NCBI RefSeq assembly: GCF_002161055.1
Contig: NZ_NFLT01000002.1
Location: 62,001-126,000, forward strand
Direction: 5' to 3'
Source of the DNA: Tyzzerella sp. An114
GTDB lineage: Bacteria; Bacillota; Clostridia; Lachnospirales; Anaerotignaceae
DNA: 64,000 nucleotides
The notes under the pieces were generated by a model that saw only the letters and a program-made list of their open reading frames with translations, was not told the DNA's origin and ran no database searches. Positions 11,650 through 63,992 of the stretch are shown here, in pieces. Position numbers and translations under genes: made by a program. The number at the start of each line of letters is the position of its first letter. The stretch's first letter is position 1.

Positions 11650-11830
11650 AAGGTTCCTGAAGTGTGCGACAACCTGTTGTTTTTGAACCTACATTACTTA
11701 AACGGGAATCCTATAAACGAAGAATATGTCAGGCCTCTTACTAATTCCCTTTGGGCTGAGGAAGGCAGAGTTTTAGTTGCGGATACCCACCTGGCTACGG
11801 CTAGGTGTCAGAAGGCAGGAACGGCATTTC
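11650..11830 (+). ncRNA. ssrS: 6S RNA (SsrS family)
   Basis: Non-coding RNA of about 180 bases in the gap between lspA and the SpoIID gene. The ends pair (GTTCCTG 11653-11659 with CAGGAAC 11816-11822), giving the long rod with a central bubble expected for 6S. An internal hairpin CACCT/AGGTG lies at about 11788-11809. The segments AAGTGTGCGACAACCTGTTG and GAACCTACATTACTTAAACG resemble clostridial 6S RNAs as I remember them. 6S binds the housekeeping sigma-factor RNA polymerase and dampens transcription in stationary phase. It is more G+C-rich than its surroundings. An open frame overlapping it lacks coding character. A covariance search would settle the call. Confidence 0.75.
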
Positions 11831-11867
11831 GGGGATTTTTAAATTTTTCTTAAAGCTTCTGAATTTT

Positions 11868-11902: not shown

Positions 11903-11947
11903 GTCCAAATCTGCATATTATTTTTTATGAGAGGAGGACAAGGAGTT

Positions 11948-14305
11948 ATGAAAAAATATATTATTATTTTTTTCGTTATTATATTTTCTTTTGTTTTGGT
12001 TTCTTGTGGTATGAGTGATAAAAATATCACTAAAAATCAAGTTATATATTATAATGAAGTTGGAAAAGTTGGGGAGGATTTGCCTGTAACTCGTATAGAT
12101 GCAGCTGTGGCAATATCTTTTATATTTGATGATATTGAAAATATAAATAATATGGAAAAAAAGGCTCAATTTTCTGATGTTGATATTGAAAGTTATGAGT
12201 ATAATTTTGTTAATTATGTTTTTTGTAAAGGAATTATGGTTGGTGAAGGTGAAAAATTTAAGCCTGATGAACCTTTAACTATTATACAAGCCCAATCTTT
12301 GATAGATTTGATAAATTCTGAAAATAAGACAAAAATAAAAATGTCTGATGATATAAAAAACAAAGCCATTTCTTATGCTTTATGGAATAGTCTTATTATT
12401 GATGTGGCTGAAAATATGGGTTGTAAAGAGGAAGAACTTAAAATTTTTGATGTTTCCGATAATAAAGATATATATTATACAGATAAGGGACAGTTTAATT
12501 TTTATAATGGCTCAGGCAATTTATTTGTAGGAAATACTGTTAAAGCTATTGTTAGAGGAAATAATATATTAGGCTTTACAGAGGTTTTACAAAATCAGAT
12601 AGAATTTAAAAATATATTTGTTAAAAAAGAAAGTGAAAATACTGTTTCTGTAAATATTTTTTCAAGGAAAAAGATTTTTGATTACTCTATAAATGAAAAT
12701 ATATGTGGTGATATTGTTATAAAAAATAATGATATAGAAATTATACCAATAGAAAAATATAGTGATGATAAAATAAAGCTGGTTTCTGATGATTACATTG
12801 AAACTGAAAAAGACGGAAGAATTAATTATGATGAAAACTTTACAGTTTACAGAAAAGATGGAGTTTTAAGTGATAAATCAGAACTTCTGTGTGCTGAAAA
12901 TTTGTGTGAAATATATATGAAAGAGGGTAAAGTTTGTTCTGTATGGTTTGAAAAAGCTAAAAAACCTGAAAATATGAGAGTTGTACTTTCTGATAATAAT
13001 AAAGATGGATATATACAAAATGAAATAGTTTTGCGTTCTAAAGAGGGATTTAAACTTTTATATGGTAATAATGAGAAAGAGTTTTTGCCTGACGAGAGAC
13101 TTATTATTGATATTAATAATTGTGGAGAATATTTTTCGAATAATTGCCGTATATACATAAAACCTTTAAATGGTGGTACAACCTCAATAGAAACTCTTAC
13201 AAAGGCGAAAGCTTTACCTAAATATAGAGGAACTATTGAAATTGAAAAAAGGGATAGTGGTTTTGTTATAGTCAATGAATTGCCTTTTGAAGAATATCTT
13301 TATGGTGTTGTGCCCTGTGAAATGCCTGTATCTTTTGGAAAAGTTCCACTTATGGTTCAAGCTGTTACAGCTAGAAGTTATGGATATAATCAGTTCTTTT
13401 TAAATAGATTTTCTGAGTATGGTGCAAATATTGATGATACAGTAAATTCACAAGTTTATAATAATATGGGAGAATATGAGGAGTCTAATGAAGCTGTTGA
13501 TGAGACAAAAAATATGTTTTTAACTTATGAAAACACTGTTATAAGTGCCAATTATTTTTCAACTTCCTTTGGATTTACAGCAAATTCCGGTGAGACTTGG
13601 GCAGATTCTGTTACAAAGGAATTTCCAAGTAATACACAGCCTTATCTTGTAAGTACTCCTCAATTTGAAAATAGTGAAATTTCAAGTCTTGAGAATGAAG
13701 ATGATTTTAGAAAATTTCTTAAGAGTGATACAGAAACCTATGACAGCAGTTCTCCATGGTATAGATGGTATGTAAATATGACAGGTACAGAACTTTCTCA
13801 AGCTGTTAAAAAAAGCTCTGAAAATTTGTTTAAGAATAGTCCTGCTATGATGGAATATTCATCTAATGGTAAAGATTTTGAAAAGGGAAAAGTTTCAAAT
13901 ATAGGAAGAATTAAAAATATTGAAATAACAAAAAGAGGTCAGGGCGGAAATGTAATGACTATTGTTATAATAGGTGAAAGTGGTGCTATAAGAGTAAATG
14001 GTGAGTATAATATAAGAAAAATTATTCCTCCTAAAAGTTTTGTTAATGGAACTGATGTTATATTAAAATGTAAAAATGGAATGGAATTTAAAAATTTATC
14101 AATTATGCCTAGTGGATTTTTTACATTTGACTGTGAAAAAGATAGTAATGGATTTATAAGCAGTATAACATTTAAAGGTGGAGGAAATGGTCATGGTGTT
14201 GGAATGAGTCAAAACGGTGTTAAAGGAATGGCAGAAAAGGGATTTTCTTTTGAAGATATACTTGTTCATTATTTTAAAGGCTCATCTGTAAATACAATAG
14301 AATAA
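11948..14305 (+). CDS. Lipoprotein with SLH domain and SpoIID/LytB catalytic domain
   Basis: 785 residues. A hydrophobic leader ends in a lipobox (LVSCG), so it should be lipid-anchored outside the membrane. A single S-layer-homology-like segment follows (TRIDAAVAISFIF ... AQFSDVDIESYEYNFVNYV ... FKPDEPLTIIQAQSLI), then a long middle region. The C-terminal part from about residue 420 is SpoIID-like: LPFEEYLYGVVPCEMP, QAVTARSY, and the final GGGNGHGVGMSQNGVKGMA. SpoIID enzymes are lytic transglycosylases that cut glycan strands during engulfment. The lipobox and SLH segment suggest a wall-remodelling role in growing cells or on the spore mother cell. The start at 11948 follows AAGGAG. Confidence 0.85.
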   Translation: MKKYIIIFFVIIFSFVLVSCGMSDKNITKNQVIYYNEVGKVGEDLPVTRIDAAVAISFIFDDIENINNMEKKAQFSDVDIESYEYNFVNYVFCKGIMVGEGEKFKPDEPLTIIQAQSLIDLINSENKTKIKMSDDIKNKAISYALWNSLIIDVAENMGCKEEELKIFDVSDNKDIYYTDKGQFNFYNGSGNLFVGNTVKAIVRGNNILGFTEVLQNQIEFKNIFVKKESENTVSVNIFSRKKIFDYSINENICGDIVIKNNDIEIIPIEKYSDDKIKLVSDDYIETEKDGRINYDENFTVYRKDGVLSDKSELLCAENLCEIYMKEGKVCSVWFEKAKKPENMRVVLSDNNKDGYIQNEIVLRSKEGFKLLYGNNEKEFLPDERLIIDINNCGEYFSNNCRIYIKPLNGGTTSIETLTKAKALPKYRGTIEIEKRDSGFVIVNELPFEEYLYGVVPCEMPVSFGKVPLMVQAVTARSYGYNQFFLNRFSEYGANIDDTVNSQVYNNMGEYEESNEAVDETKNMFLTYENTVISANYFSTSFGFTANSGETWADSVTKEFPSNTQPYLVSTPQFENSEISSLENEDDFRKFLKSDTETYDSSSPWYRWYVNMTGTELSQAVKKSSENLFKNSPAMMEYSSNGKDFEKGKVSNIGRIKNIEITKRGQGGNVMTIVIIGESGAIRVNGEYNIRKIIPPKSFVNGTDVILKCKNGMEFKNLSIMPSGFFTFDCEKDSNGFISSITFKGGGNGHGVGMSQNGVKGMAEKGFSFEDILVHYFKGSSVNTIE

Positions 14306-18170: not shown

Positions 18171-20432
18171 TTGGCAAAGAAAAAGGGAATAATGCAAGGC
18201 AAACTGCTTTTTGTTATGATTTGTTTTACTGCTATTTTTTGTGGTCTTGCAGGTAGAGTGTATTATCTCAAAACTGTTAAAGGTGCAGAATATGAGCAGG
18301 AAGCTATAAGTCAACAGATAACAAGGTCTAATGATACAACAATACCTCCTAATAGAGGTTCTATTGTTGATAGAAATAAACAGCCTATGGCTGTAAGCAG
18401 TACTGTATATAATGTTGCTGTTGACCCTGTTATGATGAAAGAGCTTGATGATAATTACAAAGAACAGGTTGCCAATGGAAACAAAGAAGCTGTAAATGTA
18501 AAAGAAAATGTTATAACTGCTCTTAATGAGGTAATAGGTGTTGATAAAGATACATTGTATGATATTTTTTCCGTTGATGAAACAACTGGAGAACCTAAAT
18601 ACAATGTAAGATTTAAGTATGTTAAAAAAGGTATATCAAGAGATGAAAAGTTAGCCCTTGAGGAGAAAGGTGCAAAACTTTCAACAGCTGTTGTATATGA
18701 AAAAGATACAAAAAGAAATTATGTAATGAGCACAATTGCTTCAAATGTTTTAGGTTTTATTCGTGGTGATACAAAATGGGGACTTGAAGCTCAATATGAT
18801 AAAGAAATGAGCGGAGTTCCAGGACGTTCTTTTATAACTTATGACAGTGCTGCAAGTGCTGTAACTAATGAAATACTTCCACAAGACGGAAATACTGTTG
18901 TTACAACTTTAGATTACACTATACAACAGTATGCTGAACAGGTAGCGAAAAAAGCTATGGCTGACCATAATCCTGATAATGTTTCTGTTATTGTTATGAA
19001 CCCTAATAGTGGAGAGATATATGCTATGGCACAGGGTAAAACATTTGATGGAAATAATCCTTCCCAGCCATTAGAGCTTTCAACAAATCCAGATTTTGCA
19101 ACAACTTGGGAAGCAATGACTGATGAACAAAAATATGAATACTTAAATAATACATGGAATAACTTTAATGTTTCAAGTAGCTTTGAGCCAGGTTCAATAT
19201 TTAAGCCTATGGTTGTAGCTGCCTGCCTTGAAGAAGGAGTTATAACTCCAAATACAACATTTAATTGTACAGGTAGCCGTAGTGTTGGAGGTTGGAATAT
19301 ACCTTGTCATCTTACTAGTGGTCATGGAATTATAAATGTTGAAGGTGTTCTTGCTGAGTCTTGTAATGTTGGTATGATGGATATGGCTGCGATGCTTGGA
19401 GCTGAAAAATTTTATCAGTACCAGAAAGATTTTGGAGTTGGTGAGCTTACAGGCATAGACCTTCCAGGGGAAGCAGCTGTTTCAAGTATTATGTATCCTA
19501 TGCAAGATATAGGTCCGTCAGAACTTGCAACAATGTCTTTTGGTCAGTCATTTAGTACTACACCTATACAGATTATAAATGCTTTTTGTTCTGTTATAAA
19601 TGGTGGAAAACTTATGAGACCATATATTGTAAGTCAAATTTTAGATGCTGATGGAAATGTTATTGAAGAGAAACAGCCTGAAATAATACGTCGTGTTATA
19701 TCAAAAGAGACATCAGATATTGTAAGAAAAGATATGGAGTCAACTCTCACAGTTGGTACAGGTAAAAAAGCAAGAATAGAAGGTTATGCTATTGGTGGTA
19801 AAACAGGTACTGCTCAGCAGGGAAAACGTTCTGATTATATTCATACAGTTTCATTTGTATCATACTATCCTATTGATAATCCTGAAATAATATCTATGGT
19901 AGTTGTACATAAACCGGAACAATATATTGATGGTGTAACTTCTCCAGCTCCATATATGAAAGAGCTTATGGAAAATATAATACATTATAAATCCTATGAA
20001 CCAGATTATCCTGATGAGATAGGTGAAGATTCAACATCAACAGTAGCAACACAAAAAGTTGCTATTGAGGAATACACAGGAAAATCTGCTTCTGAAATTG
20101 TAAATATACTTGATAGTTTAGGACTTACTTATGAAATAGTAGGAAGTGGAGACACAATAATAAATCAAGCACCTCATGGTGGCGTTGATGTTGATAAGGG
20201 TTCTAAAATACTTCTCTATGTTACAAAGGGTGAAGGTGAAGGAGACACAGTTCAAGTTCCTAATGTTTATGGAAAAACTTATGATGAGGCTGTTGCAGCT
20301 TTACAACAAGCTGGATTTGCTGTAACTTTTGAAGGTGAAACAGAAGGAAGTGTCGTTACATCTCAAAATCCTAAAGGTGAAGTTTTTGCACAAGCAGGTT
20401 CGGAAGTAAATATTATACTTAAAAAACAATAA
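18171..20432 (+). CDS. pbpB: Class B penicillin-binding protein with two PASTA domains
   Basis: A 753-residue septal transpeptidase of the PBP2B/FtsI type. It has a membrane anchor near residues 10-30, a dimerisation domain (NRGSIVDRN), and a transpeptidase domain with active-site S342 in SIFK, the SCN motif and K544-T-G. Two PASTA domains follow (about 638-690 and 700-753). The chosen start is a TTG at 18171 seven bases after ftsL, with AAGGA upstream; an ATG at 18192 is a weaker alternative. Length, two PASTA units and gene order match Bacillus pbpB, followed by spoVD. Confidence 0.9.
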   Translation: MAKKKGIMQGKLLFVMICFTAIFCGLAGRVYYLKTVKGAEYEQEAISQQITRSNDTTIPPNRGSIVDRNKQPMAVSSTVYNVAVDPVMMKELDDNYKEQVANGNKEAVNVKENVITALNEVIGVDKDTLYDIFSVDETTGEPKYNVRFKYVKKGISRDEKLALEEKGAKLSTAVVYEKDTKRNYVMSTIASNVLGFIRGDTKWGLEAQYDKEMSGVPGRSFITYDSAASAVTNEILPQDGNTVVTTLDYTIQQYAEQVAKKAMADHNPDNVSVIVMNPNSGEIYAMAQGKTFDGNNPSQPLELSTNPDFATTWEAMTDEQKYEYLNNTWNNFNVSSSFEPGSIFKPMVVAACLEEGVITPNTTFNCTGSRSVGGWNIPCHLTSGHGIINVEGVLAESCNVGMMDMAAMLGAEKFYQYQKDFGVGELTGIDLPGEAAVSSIMYPMQDIGPSELATMSFGQSFSTTPIQIINAFCSVINGGKLMRPYIVSQILDADGNVIEEKQPEIIRRVISKETSDIVRKDMESTLTVGTGKKARIEGYAIGGKTGTAQQGKRSDYIHTVSFVSYYPIDNPEIISMVVVHKPEQYIDGVTSPAPYMKELMENIIHYKSYEPDYPDEIGEDSTSTVATQKVAIEEYTGKSASEIVNILDSLGLTYEIVGSGDTIINQAPHGGVDVDKGSKILLYVTKGEGEGDTVQVPNVYGKTYDEAVAALQQAGFAVTFEGETEGSVVTSQNPKGEVFAQAGSEVNIILKKQ

Positions 20433-20449
20433 ACACAATAGAATACATA

Positions 20450-20503
20450 CCCTGTCTTCAAAATAAAATATACAAATGAATTTTTGAAGGCAGGGATTTT
20501 TTT
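20450..20503 (+). promoter_or_regulatory. Terminator-like hairpin carrying the spoVD ribosome-binding site
   Basis: CCCTGTCTTCAAAA (20450-20463) pairs with TTTTGAAGGCAGGG (20482-20495), fourteen pairs with one U-G. ATTTTTTT follows and runs straight into the spoVD ATG at 20504. The 3' arm contains AGGCAGGGA, the only ribosome-binding site for spoVD. The element can therefore act both as an intrinsic terminator after pbpB and as a clamp on spoVD translation. Confidence 0.75.
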
Positions 20504-22447
20504 ATGGAAAAACCTAGTATATTTATGAAGAAAAAGTTGCTCTTTGTGCTTTTCTCAATACAGCTTTTTGTTCTTGTACTTATTGGTAGAGTTATATATA
20601 TACAGACTGTCAAAGCTGATGAACTTCAGAAAATGGCCTATGAGCAACAGACAAGAGATAGGCTTATATCACCAGATAGAGGAAGCATACTTGACAGAAA
20701 TGGAACTGGTATTGCTGTTACAGAGACTGTAAACGCTATAAGTGTAATTCCGGCACAGATTAAAGATAAAGATTATGTGTCAAATTATCTTTCAGAAGTT
20801 TTGGAAATGGAGTATGATGAAGTTTTTGAAAAAGTAAATCAAAAAGTGGCTCTTGTAAGAATAAAAACAAAAGTAGATAGTGAAATTGCTATGGAAATAA
20901 GAAAAAAAGACATAGAAGGAATTGTTGTTGATGAAGATGTAAAGAGAATTTATCCTTATAGCAATATAGCTTCTCAAGTTATAGGATTTGTTGGAAAAGA
21001 TAATCAGGGAATAATAGGTCTTGAGGCAAAATATGATGAGTATTTAAAGGGTGAGGAAGGTAAAATATTGACTTTGACAGACTCAAAAGGTCTTGAAGTT
21101 GATAGCACTCAAGAGAGAATAGCCCCTATTGATGGATATAATCTTGTCACAAGCATTGATATTATTATACAACAATATGCAGAACAGACTATTAAAAAAG
21201 CTGTTGAGTCAAAAAAAGCTCAGAAAGGTATTATAATAGTTCTAAATCCTCAAAATGGTGAGATTTATGCTATGGCAAACTATCCTAATTTTGACTTAAA
21301 TAATCCTTTTGTTATAAATGACTCTGAACTTTTAAGTATATGGGATACATTAAGTGAAAAAGAACAAAATGATGCTCTTAATCAAATGTGGAGAAATACT
21401 GCCATAAATGATACATATGAACCGGGAAGTACATTTAAAACTGTCACTTCTGCTGCTTCATTGGAAGAGGGAGTTGTAACACCTGAAAGTACATTTTTTT
21501 GTAATGGTTACCACATAGCTGGCGACAGAATGATAAAATGTTGGAGATATCCCAGAACTCATGGAGCTCAAACTTTTGTTCAAGGAGTTCAAAACTCATG
21601 TAACCCTGTATTTATGGAATTGGGAGAGAGACTTGGAGCGGAAAAATTTTATGAGTATATGGATAAATTCGGTTTTAATGAAAAAACAGGAATAGACTTG
21701 TCTGGTGAGGCTGTGGGTATTATGCATAAATTAGAAAATGTTGGACCTGTTGAGCTTGCAACAATGTCTTTTGGTCAGTCTTTTCAGATAACACCACTCC
21801 AACTTTTGAGAGCTGTATCATCAATGGTAAATGGAGGTTATCTTATAACACCTCATATAGGTTGTAAAATAACAGACAATGAAGGTAATGTTATAAAAGA
21901 ACTTGAATATGGAGAAAATGAAAAAATACTTTCAGATAAAACATCTGAACAGATGAAAGTAATACTTGAAAGTGTTGTTTCTGAAGGTACAGGAAATAAA
22001 GCTTATATACCAGGATATAGAATAGGTGGAAAAACTGCTACATCAGAAAAACTTCCAAGAAGAAGTGGAAAATATATAGCCTCTTTTCTCACTTTTGCAC
22101 CGGCTGAAAATCCTCAAGTCATGGCAATAGTTTTAATAGATGAACCACAGGGAACATATTATGGGGGAACTGTTGCAGGTCCTGTTATGCAGGAACTTTT
22201 GCTTAATATATTACCATATATGGGAATTGAACCTGTATACAGTGAAAAAGAAAAAGAATTACCTGAAACAGTAAAAAATACTGTTCCTGATATATCAAAT
22301 TTGTCTTTAGCTGATGCTAAAAATATATTGAAAGAGTCAAATATAGAATTTGAAATACAAGGAGAAGGGGAAAATGTAACAAAACAATTTCCACCAGCAG
22401 GAGAGACAATAAATATTGACTCAAAGGTTATAATATATACCCAGTAA
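20504..22447 (+). CDS. spoVD: Class B PBP, SpoVD-like (one PASTA domain)
   Basis: 647 residues: membrane helix at about 9-28, dimerisation domain (SPDRGSILDRNG), transpeptidase domain with S309 in STFK and the SCN motif, and one C-terminal PASTA domain (about 585-647). Length, single PASTA unit and position between pbpB and murE match SpoVD, which makes spore cortex peptidoglycan. The third active-site motif reads K510-T-A instead of K-T-G. The start is the ATG at 20504; an in-frame ATG at 20525 is possible. Expression may be set by the hairpin just upstream. Confidence 0.85.
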   Translation: MEKPSIFMKKKLLFVLFSIQLFVLVLIGRVIYIQTVKADELQKMAYEQQTRDRLISPDRGSILDRNGTGIAVTETVNAISVIPAQIKDKDYVSNYLSEVLEMEYDEVFEKVNQKVALVRIKTKVDSEIAMEIRKKDIEGIVVDEDVKRIYPYSNIASQVIGFVGKDNQGIIGLEAKYDEYLKGEEGKILTLTDSKGLEVDSTQERIAPIDGYNLVTSIDIIIQQYAEQTIKKAVESKKAQKGIIIVLNPQNGEIYAMANYPNFDLNNPFVINDSELLSIWDTLSEKEQNDALNQMWRNTAINDTYEPGSTFKTVTSAASLEEGVVTPESTFFCNGYHIAGDRMIKCWRYPRTHGAQTFVQGVQNSCNPVFMELGERLGAEKFYEYMDKFGFNEKTGIDLSGEAVGIMHKLENVGPVELATMSFGQSFQITPLQLLRAVSSMVNGGYLITPHIGCKITDNEGNVIKELEYGENEKILSDKTSEQMKVILESVVSEGTGNKAYIPGYRIGGKTATSEKLPRRSGKYIASFLTFAPAENPQVMAIVLIDEPQGTYYGGTVAGPVMQELLLNILPYMGIEPVYSEKEKELPETVKNTVPDISNLSLADAKNILKESNIEFEIQGEGENVTKQFPPAGETINIDSKVIIYTQ

Positions 22448-22589
22448 AAGCAAGTATTTTTGTCTAACATATTTAATTTACAGTATAATTTATAAACTCT
22501 TATGTTTGTGCCAAAATCCTTTTTAAATGCTATTTAATGTGTTATAATTAATAGTTGAAAATTGTTATAAAGTAATTGGGAGGCAGATT

Positions 22590-29399: not shown

Positions 29400-29647
29400 A
29401 TGATAAAAACTGTGAACAGGAGGAGTAAACATATACAGCCATCAGGGAGAAAAGTCCGTTGACTGAGAGACTTTTTTGGATATGGTATGTTGAAGGTAGC
29501 CTGGGAGTTCCTGTATTGAAATTTTAAGTATTTTTAAGTAGATATGGGCGGGTTGTTCCGTTAAATACTTTCAGAGAGCCTGTTTTACAGGAATAAAGGT
29601 GGTACCGCGAGCTTTCGTCCTTTTTTGGACGAAGGCTCTTTTTTTAC
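29400..29647 (+). promoter_or_regulatory. T-box riboswitch upstream of valS
   Basis: Leader RNA that reads uncharged tRNA-Val. Stem I is closed by ACAGGA (29416-29421) with TCCTGT (29509-29514). A candidate specifier codon GTA (29496-29498, valine) lies on the 3' side in GAAGGTAGCC. The T-box core AAGGTGGTACCGCG is at 29596-29609 and precedes the terminator. An AGGAGGAG at the 5' end is part of the stem and not a gene start. Confidence 0.95.
29609..29646 (+). terminator. Regulated terminator of the valS T-box
   Basis: GAGCTTTCGTCC pairs with GGACGAAGGCTC around TTTTTT, followed by seven T residues. It competes with the antiterminator formed by the T-box sequence. Confidence 0.95.
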
Positions 29648-63847: not shown

Positions 63848-63880
63848 ATATATGTGTAATTAATTTAACAGAGCATTTTA

Positions 63881-63949
63881 ACTGCATGACTGGCGGAAGT
63901 AGATTAACTACAAGGGAGTGCAGTGTTTTAAAGCCGACCGCCTGGGCAA
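63881..63949 (+). promoter_or_regulatory. ZTP riboswitch (pfl motif)
   Basis: Aptamer with P1 ACTGCA (63881-63886) closing on TGCAGT (63919-63924), the core ACTGGCGGAA after P1, AGGGAG before the 3' strand of P1, and the pseudoknot part GCCGACCGCCTGGGCA. These are the signature blocks of the pfl/ZTP class, which turns on purine and one-carbon genes when ZTP/ZMP accumulates. The controlled gene is beyond the window. Confidence 0.9.
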
Positions 63950-63992
63950 TTTTGTGTTTTCTATGACAGAATTTTGCTCAGGCGGTTTTTGT
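63938..63992 (+). terminator. Expression-platform terminator of the ZTP riboswitch
   Basis: CCGCCTGGGCAA (63938-63949) pairs with TTGCTCAGGCGG (63974-63985), followed by T residues. The 5' arm is part of the aptamer core, so ligand binding and termination exclude each other. Confidence 0.9.

Follow-up and report, generated by a model that had tools for sequence, protein, structure and literature searches.

A conserved hairpin with a predicted sigma-E-type promoter inside it as a probable translational lock on spoVD in Tyzzerella sp. An114 and its relatives

In spore-forming bacteria the genes for sporulation penicillin-binding proteins (PBPs) share a cluster with essential cell-wall genes, which raises a question: how may a growth operon cross a spore gene without making its protein? 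The window analyzed here, 64,000 nucleotides of Tyzzerella sp. An114 (contig NZ_NFLT01000002.1, positions 62,001 to 126,000), poses this question at a single junction. On its forward strand two PBP genes lie in tandem within the division and cell wall (dcw) cluster, ahead of murE (named by eye); a pbpB/ftsI-like gene (18171..20432), the source of any read-through, is followed by a spoVD-type gene (20504..22447), and between them lies a hairpin that holds the ribosome-binding site of spoVD. It is likely, in our assessment, that this element acts as a lock on the translation of read-through RNA and has a developmental promoter built in. We infer that in growing cells transcripts run on from pbpB; these would carry both arms of the hairpin, fold it and hide the spoVD ribosome-binding site, so blocking translation in the cell, and in several relatives the folded hairpin would hide the AUG as well. 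During sporulation, RNA polymerase carrying sigma-E would start from a promoter embedded in the hairpin, and a transcript beginning in the loop, without the 5' arm, would leave the ribosome site free. This gives a concrete account of the crossing, for which only RNA folding and promoter choice would be needed.

The hairpin and the spoVD ribosome site

Hairpin, conservation, covariation, promoter geometry and change in accessibility were all established by computation. Folding of the spoVD leader yields a stem of 14 pairs, in which the 5' arm (20450..20463, + strand) pairs with the 3' arm (20482..20495, + strand) around an 18-nt loop (20464..20481, + strand). The minimum free energy is -20.2 kcal/mol, whereas shuffled sequences average -9.4 (z -4.2), and 0 of 200 of them are as stable. 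The sole Shine-Dalgarno-like stretch of spoVD, AAGGCAGGGA (20487..20496, + strand, chosen by its match to AGGAGG), lies inside or directly beside the 3' arm, which closes with TTGAAGGCAGGG; an A and seven T (the T-run, 20497..20503, + strand) lead from there to the ATG at 20504. A first-pass annotation, made from the letters alone, had described just such a 14-pair stem, a 3' arm holding the only ribosome-binding site of spoVD and a T-run touching the ATG, and each of these descriptions is borne out. Because the 5' arm starts 18 nt past the end of the pbpB stop codon, a ribosome terminating at pbpB should not hinder folding of the hairpin.

The comparison covers 53 genomes of the family and 21 of the order. 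Of the family genomes G187, in which the start is misassigned, was dropped from the counts, leaving 52, and the covariance model later located its hairpin; G184 and G020 (partial genes) and G037, G040 and G056 (no proper SpoVD) were left out likewise. The two arms pair better than their shuffles (p<=0.05) in 40 of the 52 genomes from the family and in 10 of the 21 from the order. The mean pairing energy of a 5' segment is -18.8 kcal/mol with the 3' segment of the same genome and -10.7 with 3' segments of other genera. In the covariation alignment, standard pairs occupy 90.6% of the pair cells and six pairs have changed on both sides; none of 500 shuffles matches the observed paired fraction or the covariation score, and registers slid along the alignment reach 47-68%. 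The pairs were counted in alignment A1, which holds the 28 of 52 family sequences, from seven genera, whose arms can be aligned, and which therefore leans towards conservation. Hairpins with unrelated arms occupy the same place outside the alignment set, for example in G036, G058, G059 and G044. These comparisons indicate that the pairing of the hairpin is under selection. In G021 the spoVD hairpin (L300, G021:C20:22533-22645) has an apparent long insertion in its loop, and both arms are still found by the covariance model.

What the hairpin may do to translation can be read from the predicted cost of opening the region from -16 to +3, which averages 16.5 kcal/mol over the family in read-through RNA versus 6.8 in promoter-initiated RNA. 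For spoVD the cost drops by at least 5 kcal/mol in 40 of 52 genomes of the family and 15 of 21 of the order, against 0 of 65 for murE and 4 of 50 for pbpB. The proposal of the first-pass annotation that the stem hides the spoVD site is thus well supported by conservation, covariation and the change in opening cost.

A predicted promoter in the hairpin

We find the two boxes of a putative sigma-E-type promoter laid over the hairpin. The predicted -35, GAATACA (20441..20447, + strand), stands at the hairpin foot, the 14-nt spacer is mostly 5' arm, and the predicted -10, AATAAAAT (20462..20469, + strand), takes in the top of the 5' arm and ends in the loop. The expected start, 6-9 nt past the -10, would fall at 20475-20478, in the loop and 4-7 nt ahead of the 3' arm; therefore a transcript initiated there would lack the 5' arm and be unable to form the hairpin. 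A sporulation transcript starting between 20464 and 20490 had been suggested on the first pass, and the conserved box pair argues well for it. The consensus for sigma-E is KMATATT-like at -35 and CATACAMT-like at -10. PMC517825 gives about 14 nt between the two elements, and also places B. subtilis spoVD under sigma-E control.

With a matrix derived from spoIVA promoters no more than 25 of 53 family genomes reach significance (p<=0.05), the window not among them, and a spacing test was used in its place. spoIVA is a sigma-E gene in B. subtilis. In the spacing test each sequence was anchored on its best -10-like box alone, and the offset of the -35 core MATA was then counted. At spoVD, 40 of 52 genomes of the family, from 15 of 17 genera, and 8 of 21 of the order have MATA exactly 20 nt before the -10, and no other offset is shared by more than 7 of the 52. 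In the controls an offset of 20 nt is found for murE in 1 of 66, for pbpB in 1 of 50, and in 19 of 743 genes sampled from the window's own genome (G000), without a peak. The spoIVA genes of the same genomes have these two boxes as well, 14 nt apart in 23 of 28. At family level, then, boxes and spacing are those of a sigma-E promoter; because the boxes of the window (GAATACA / AATAAAAT) score weakly alone, its promoter assignment leans on the relatives. The promoter may instead be of the sigma-K type, sigma-K promoters being similar. We also considered CATACCCT (20446-20453) as the -10, with a start within the 5' arm, and rejected it; in the relatives the conserved box pair lies further downstream.

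Points against the lock, and rival explanations

Several observations weigh against a lock of this kind. Significant arm pairing is absent in 12 of 52 family and 11 of 21 order genomes. Where no PBP gene precedes spoVD the hairpin is not clearly lost; 2 of 4 such genomes in the family and 2 of 7 in the order still have it. The best match to the spoIVA matrix in the window lies elsewhere (p=0.29), its own promoter being weak, and in PMC7438776 C. difficile spoVD is listed under SigH, not SigE. The short RNA is not fully open either, its Shine-Dalgarno being unpaired at a mean of 0.44, near the 0.52 of the murE control, and at only 0.18 in the window itself. Finally, hairpins cover ribosome sites at genes outside sporulation too, among them integrase-like genes; 42 of 743 starts have a lock of at least 6, and opening cost, used alone to rank all genes, does not single out those of sporulation.

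Is the hairpin mainly an intrinsic terminator of pbpB that overlaps the start of the next gene, with hiding of the ribosome site a by-product and spoVD transcribed from a promoter of its own? We regard this as unlikely, though it is the most probable of the rivals. A GC-containing stem followed by a T-run is what an intrinsic terminator looks like, and the window has both, with seven T; in the family, 20 of 40 hairpins have an uninterrupted run of at least five T after the stem. All 18 measurable hairpin genomes with such a run leave at least 63 nt before murE, and in the window a sigma-A-type promoter-like site stands before murE (22460..22489, + strand, 10 of 12 consensus positions), which would feed murE if the hairpin terminates. 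However, the T-run is gone in half of the family and is found in only 1 of 10 order hairpins, whereas stem, Shine-Dalgarno and mostly the promoter geometry are kept, so that a stem followed by a U-run, though present in the window, is not a conserved feature. The loop, moreover, is long for an intrinsic terminator at 18 nt and carries a -10 element; because of its length a simple terminator scan, which takes loops of 3-8, does not list the hairpin. Seven hairpin genomes (G013, G017, G031, G042, G043, G044 and G047) combine a T-run of three or fewer with a murE start within 25 nt of the spoVD stop, and since murE is so close and there is no real T-run, read-through past the hairpin is probably needed there, although murE could instead have a promoter inside spoVD in these genomes. 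A comparison of T-run with distance to murE gives p=0.075 (Mann-Whitney) and a Spearman coefficient of 0.32 (p=0.03), values uncorrected for relatedness; the murE start in G177 is probably miscalled.

The constant function would thus be to hide the ribosome site, and termination an optional, secondary extra limited to some lineages. In the window and in some relatives the stem with its T-run may also halt part of the read-through. The first-pass annotation proposed that the same element could stop read-through from pbpB; this is possible in the window, but it is not a conserved property.

A leader controlled by a ligand or a protein, an attenuator or riboswitch-like device that would open the hairpin upon a signal, is very improbable. 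A conserved hairpin sequestering a ribosome-binding site is compatible with it, but a covariance-model search finds no Rfam family match at the site, arm sequences are unrelated between families, and the letters conserved in the leader belong to the promoter boxes, the Shine-Dalgarno and the start codon rather than to the loops or bulges that usually mark a binding site. Least probable of all is an inverted repeat acting as DNA, as protein-binding site or cruciform with incidental RNA pairing, for although an inverted repeat that overlaps a promoter is often an operator, here the arm sequence is not conserved while the pairing is, G-U included (UG is the commonest pair at two stem positions of the alignment), which fits RNA better than a palindrome in DNA.

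Known systems and similar locks at other genes

The principle is already known, from phage T4 gene e and B. subtilis sigG, and the spoVD element is a new and well-conserved case of it, as far as sequence comparison goes. In the fold-back inhibition of the IS10 transposase, read-through mRNA hides the start site and mRNA from the internal promoter does not; that arrangement serves self-protection of a transposon, not development. The hairpin at sigG (spoIIIG) was reportedly first claimed by Masuda in 1988. In PMC5942855, a hairpin of 20+ bp is proposed to silence read-through into this gene and cannot form in transcripts from its own promoter. There too a sporulation gene stands behind another gene, but sigG is a matter of sigma-F and sigma-G and its upstream operon itself belongs to sporulation, whereas here the upstream gene is one of growth and the element is conserved across a family. 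For the leaders of T4 gene e, I-TevI, soc and segB, PMC3014915 and PMC2988022 describe long early transcripts that form a helix sequestering the ribosome-binding site and late transcripts that start inside the helix, have no 5' strand and are translated; the DNA encoding that strand also holds the late promoter at gene e and in related phages. The likeness to gene e consists in a helix over the ribosome-binding site and would extend to a stage-specific promoter within it. The two are not homologous, one being a phage gene under a phage late sigma factor and the other a cellular sporulation gene with a sigma-E-type promoter. Among open-licence PMC papers we found none that describes an element of this kind, either at spoVD or within this bacterial family.

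Is spoVD alone in this arrangement? A covariance model of the spoVD hairpins matches four places in the window's genome at E<=0.05: spoVD, a GerA-type receptor gene (Pfam GerA, E 1e-170), gerS and ylbJ. Further sites, ahead of a SipL-domain gene (E 0.66) and of a divergent polysaccharide deacetylase (E 1.5), match more weakly. Upstream of gerS stands an NAD(P)H-hydrate repair gene, upstream of ylbJ a nucleotidyltransferase gene and upstream of the SipL gene a signal peptidase gene; gerS and ylbJ have a sigma-E-type promoter in the same layout as spoVD. At the gerS loci (L325:7731-8360 on the minus strand, L264, L391-L420) the arms differ among G000, G001 and G002 while the promoter boxes stay. 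At the spoIIM loci (L421-L450), where the gene lies downstream of an open reading frame (ORF) of ~180 aa (NUDIX-like by eye in G029), the lock takes a variant form, the -10 box CATATCCT itself pairing with the Shine-Dalgarno in many genomes. Genus g4 has a sigma-E-type promoter within a hairpin over the spoIVA ribosome site (L311, G005); none was found in 28 spoIVA genes from the rest of the family.

In a uniform arm-pairing test (p<=0.01, family genomes) spoVD scores in 41 of 52, spoIIM in 18 of 30, gerS in 14 of 28 and ylbJ in 2 of 29, and among the controls spoIVA in 0 of 28, murE in 1 of 66, pbpB in 0 of 50 and the sampled G000 genes in 19 of 743; 2 of 30 spoIVA, 1 of 30 ylbJ and 1-2 of 30 gerS loci had been dropped before counting. 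The figures for ylbJ do not support it as a gene locked family-wide, though it is locked in G000 and G002. Among the 19 paired G000 genes, 16 of which were covered by naming against the family library, are the spoVD, GerA, gerS, ylbJ and SipL genes and SpoIIAB, and none of 19 random control genes exceeds the cut-off of a sporulation family; this enrichment is biased, part of the sampled stretches having been chosen because the covariance model matched there. Of six genes with a strict sigma-E-type site four are locked, versus 38 of 737 without one (p=1e-4), although spoVD and gerS, two of the four, prompted the test. The neighbourhood of sigE and sigG is mostly uninformative, sigG being not adjacent or not recognized, and only G022 is clearly hairpin-like.

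Of the 35 matches that the covariance model gave in the relatives besides the 30 provided as loci, 20 were inspected. Five of these are spoVD, the GerA-type receptor gene (recognized by its similarity to that of G000), spoIVA, spoVB and spoIIM; the others are integrase-like, C_GCAxxG-like and unassigned genes (named by eye), and the model is therefore not specific. Two tyrosine-recombinase-like genes, apparently of mobile elements (L304 and L307, in G026 and G014, by eye), have a similar hairpin with a T-run over the ribosome-binding site, which perhaps protects the integrase from read-through.

In many relatives, then, similar locks seem to stand before gerS and spoIIM, and some relatives have them ahead of further sporulation genes, which hints at a class that spans the lineage. 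We give an even chance to the broader idea that this family embeds sporulation genes in growth operons through recurrent promoter-in-hairpin locks with unrelated arms and one layout, at spoVD, gerS, spoIIM, ylbJ, sipL, the gerA-type receptor operon and, within individual lineages, spoIVA and spoVB. If so, translation would be tied to the sigma factor that made the message and development would be proof against read-through, many sporulation genes "expressed" in growth transcriptomes would be silent at translation, and the element would be a compact, ready-made part for stage-specific expression.

As to the genes themselves, the best match of the downstream protein is SpoVD (TIGR02214), at 640 bits and below the model cut-off of 688, and the upstream protein, which also matches PBP2 families, reaches 488 bits on the same model; because the SpoVD score is under the cut-off, the names pbpB and spoVD rest on best match and on the order of the dcw cluster. 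SpoVD relatives turned up in every relative (60 of 60), and 55 of 58 family genomes have one when the threshold is strict. The nearest named relative found is Candidatus Fimicola merdigallinarum (Lachnospirales; 84% SpoVD identity). A same-strand PBP gene precedes spoVD in 45 of 52 family genomes (3 further cases lie at contig ends). Genes for SpoIVA and sigma-E (SigE) are found in the window's genome, and sporulation genes are therefore present. C. difficile SpoVD is dispensable for growth, according to PMC10693644.

Elsewhere in the window, a 6S RNA (11651-11839) lies directly upstream of a large SpoIID/LytB-like ORF (11927-14305, by eye), which has a predicted hairpin over its ribosome-binding site as well. 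Rfam matches also place a T-box leader at 29403-29625 and a ZMP/ZTP riboswitch at 63876-63954.
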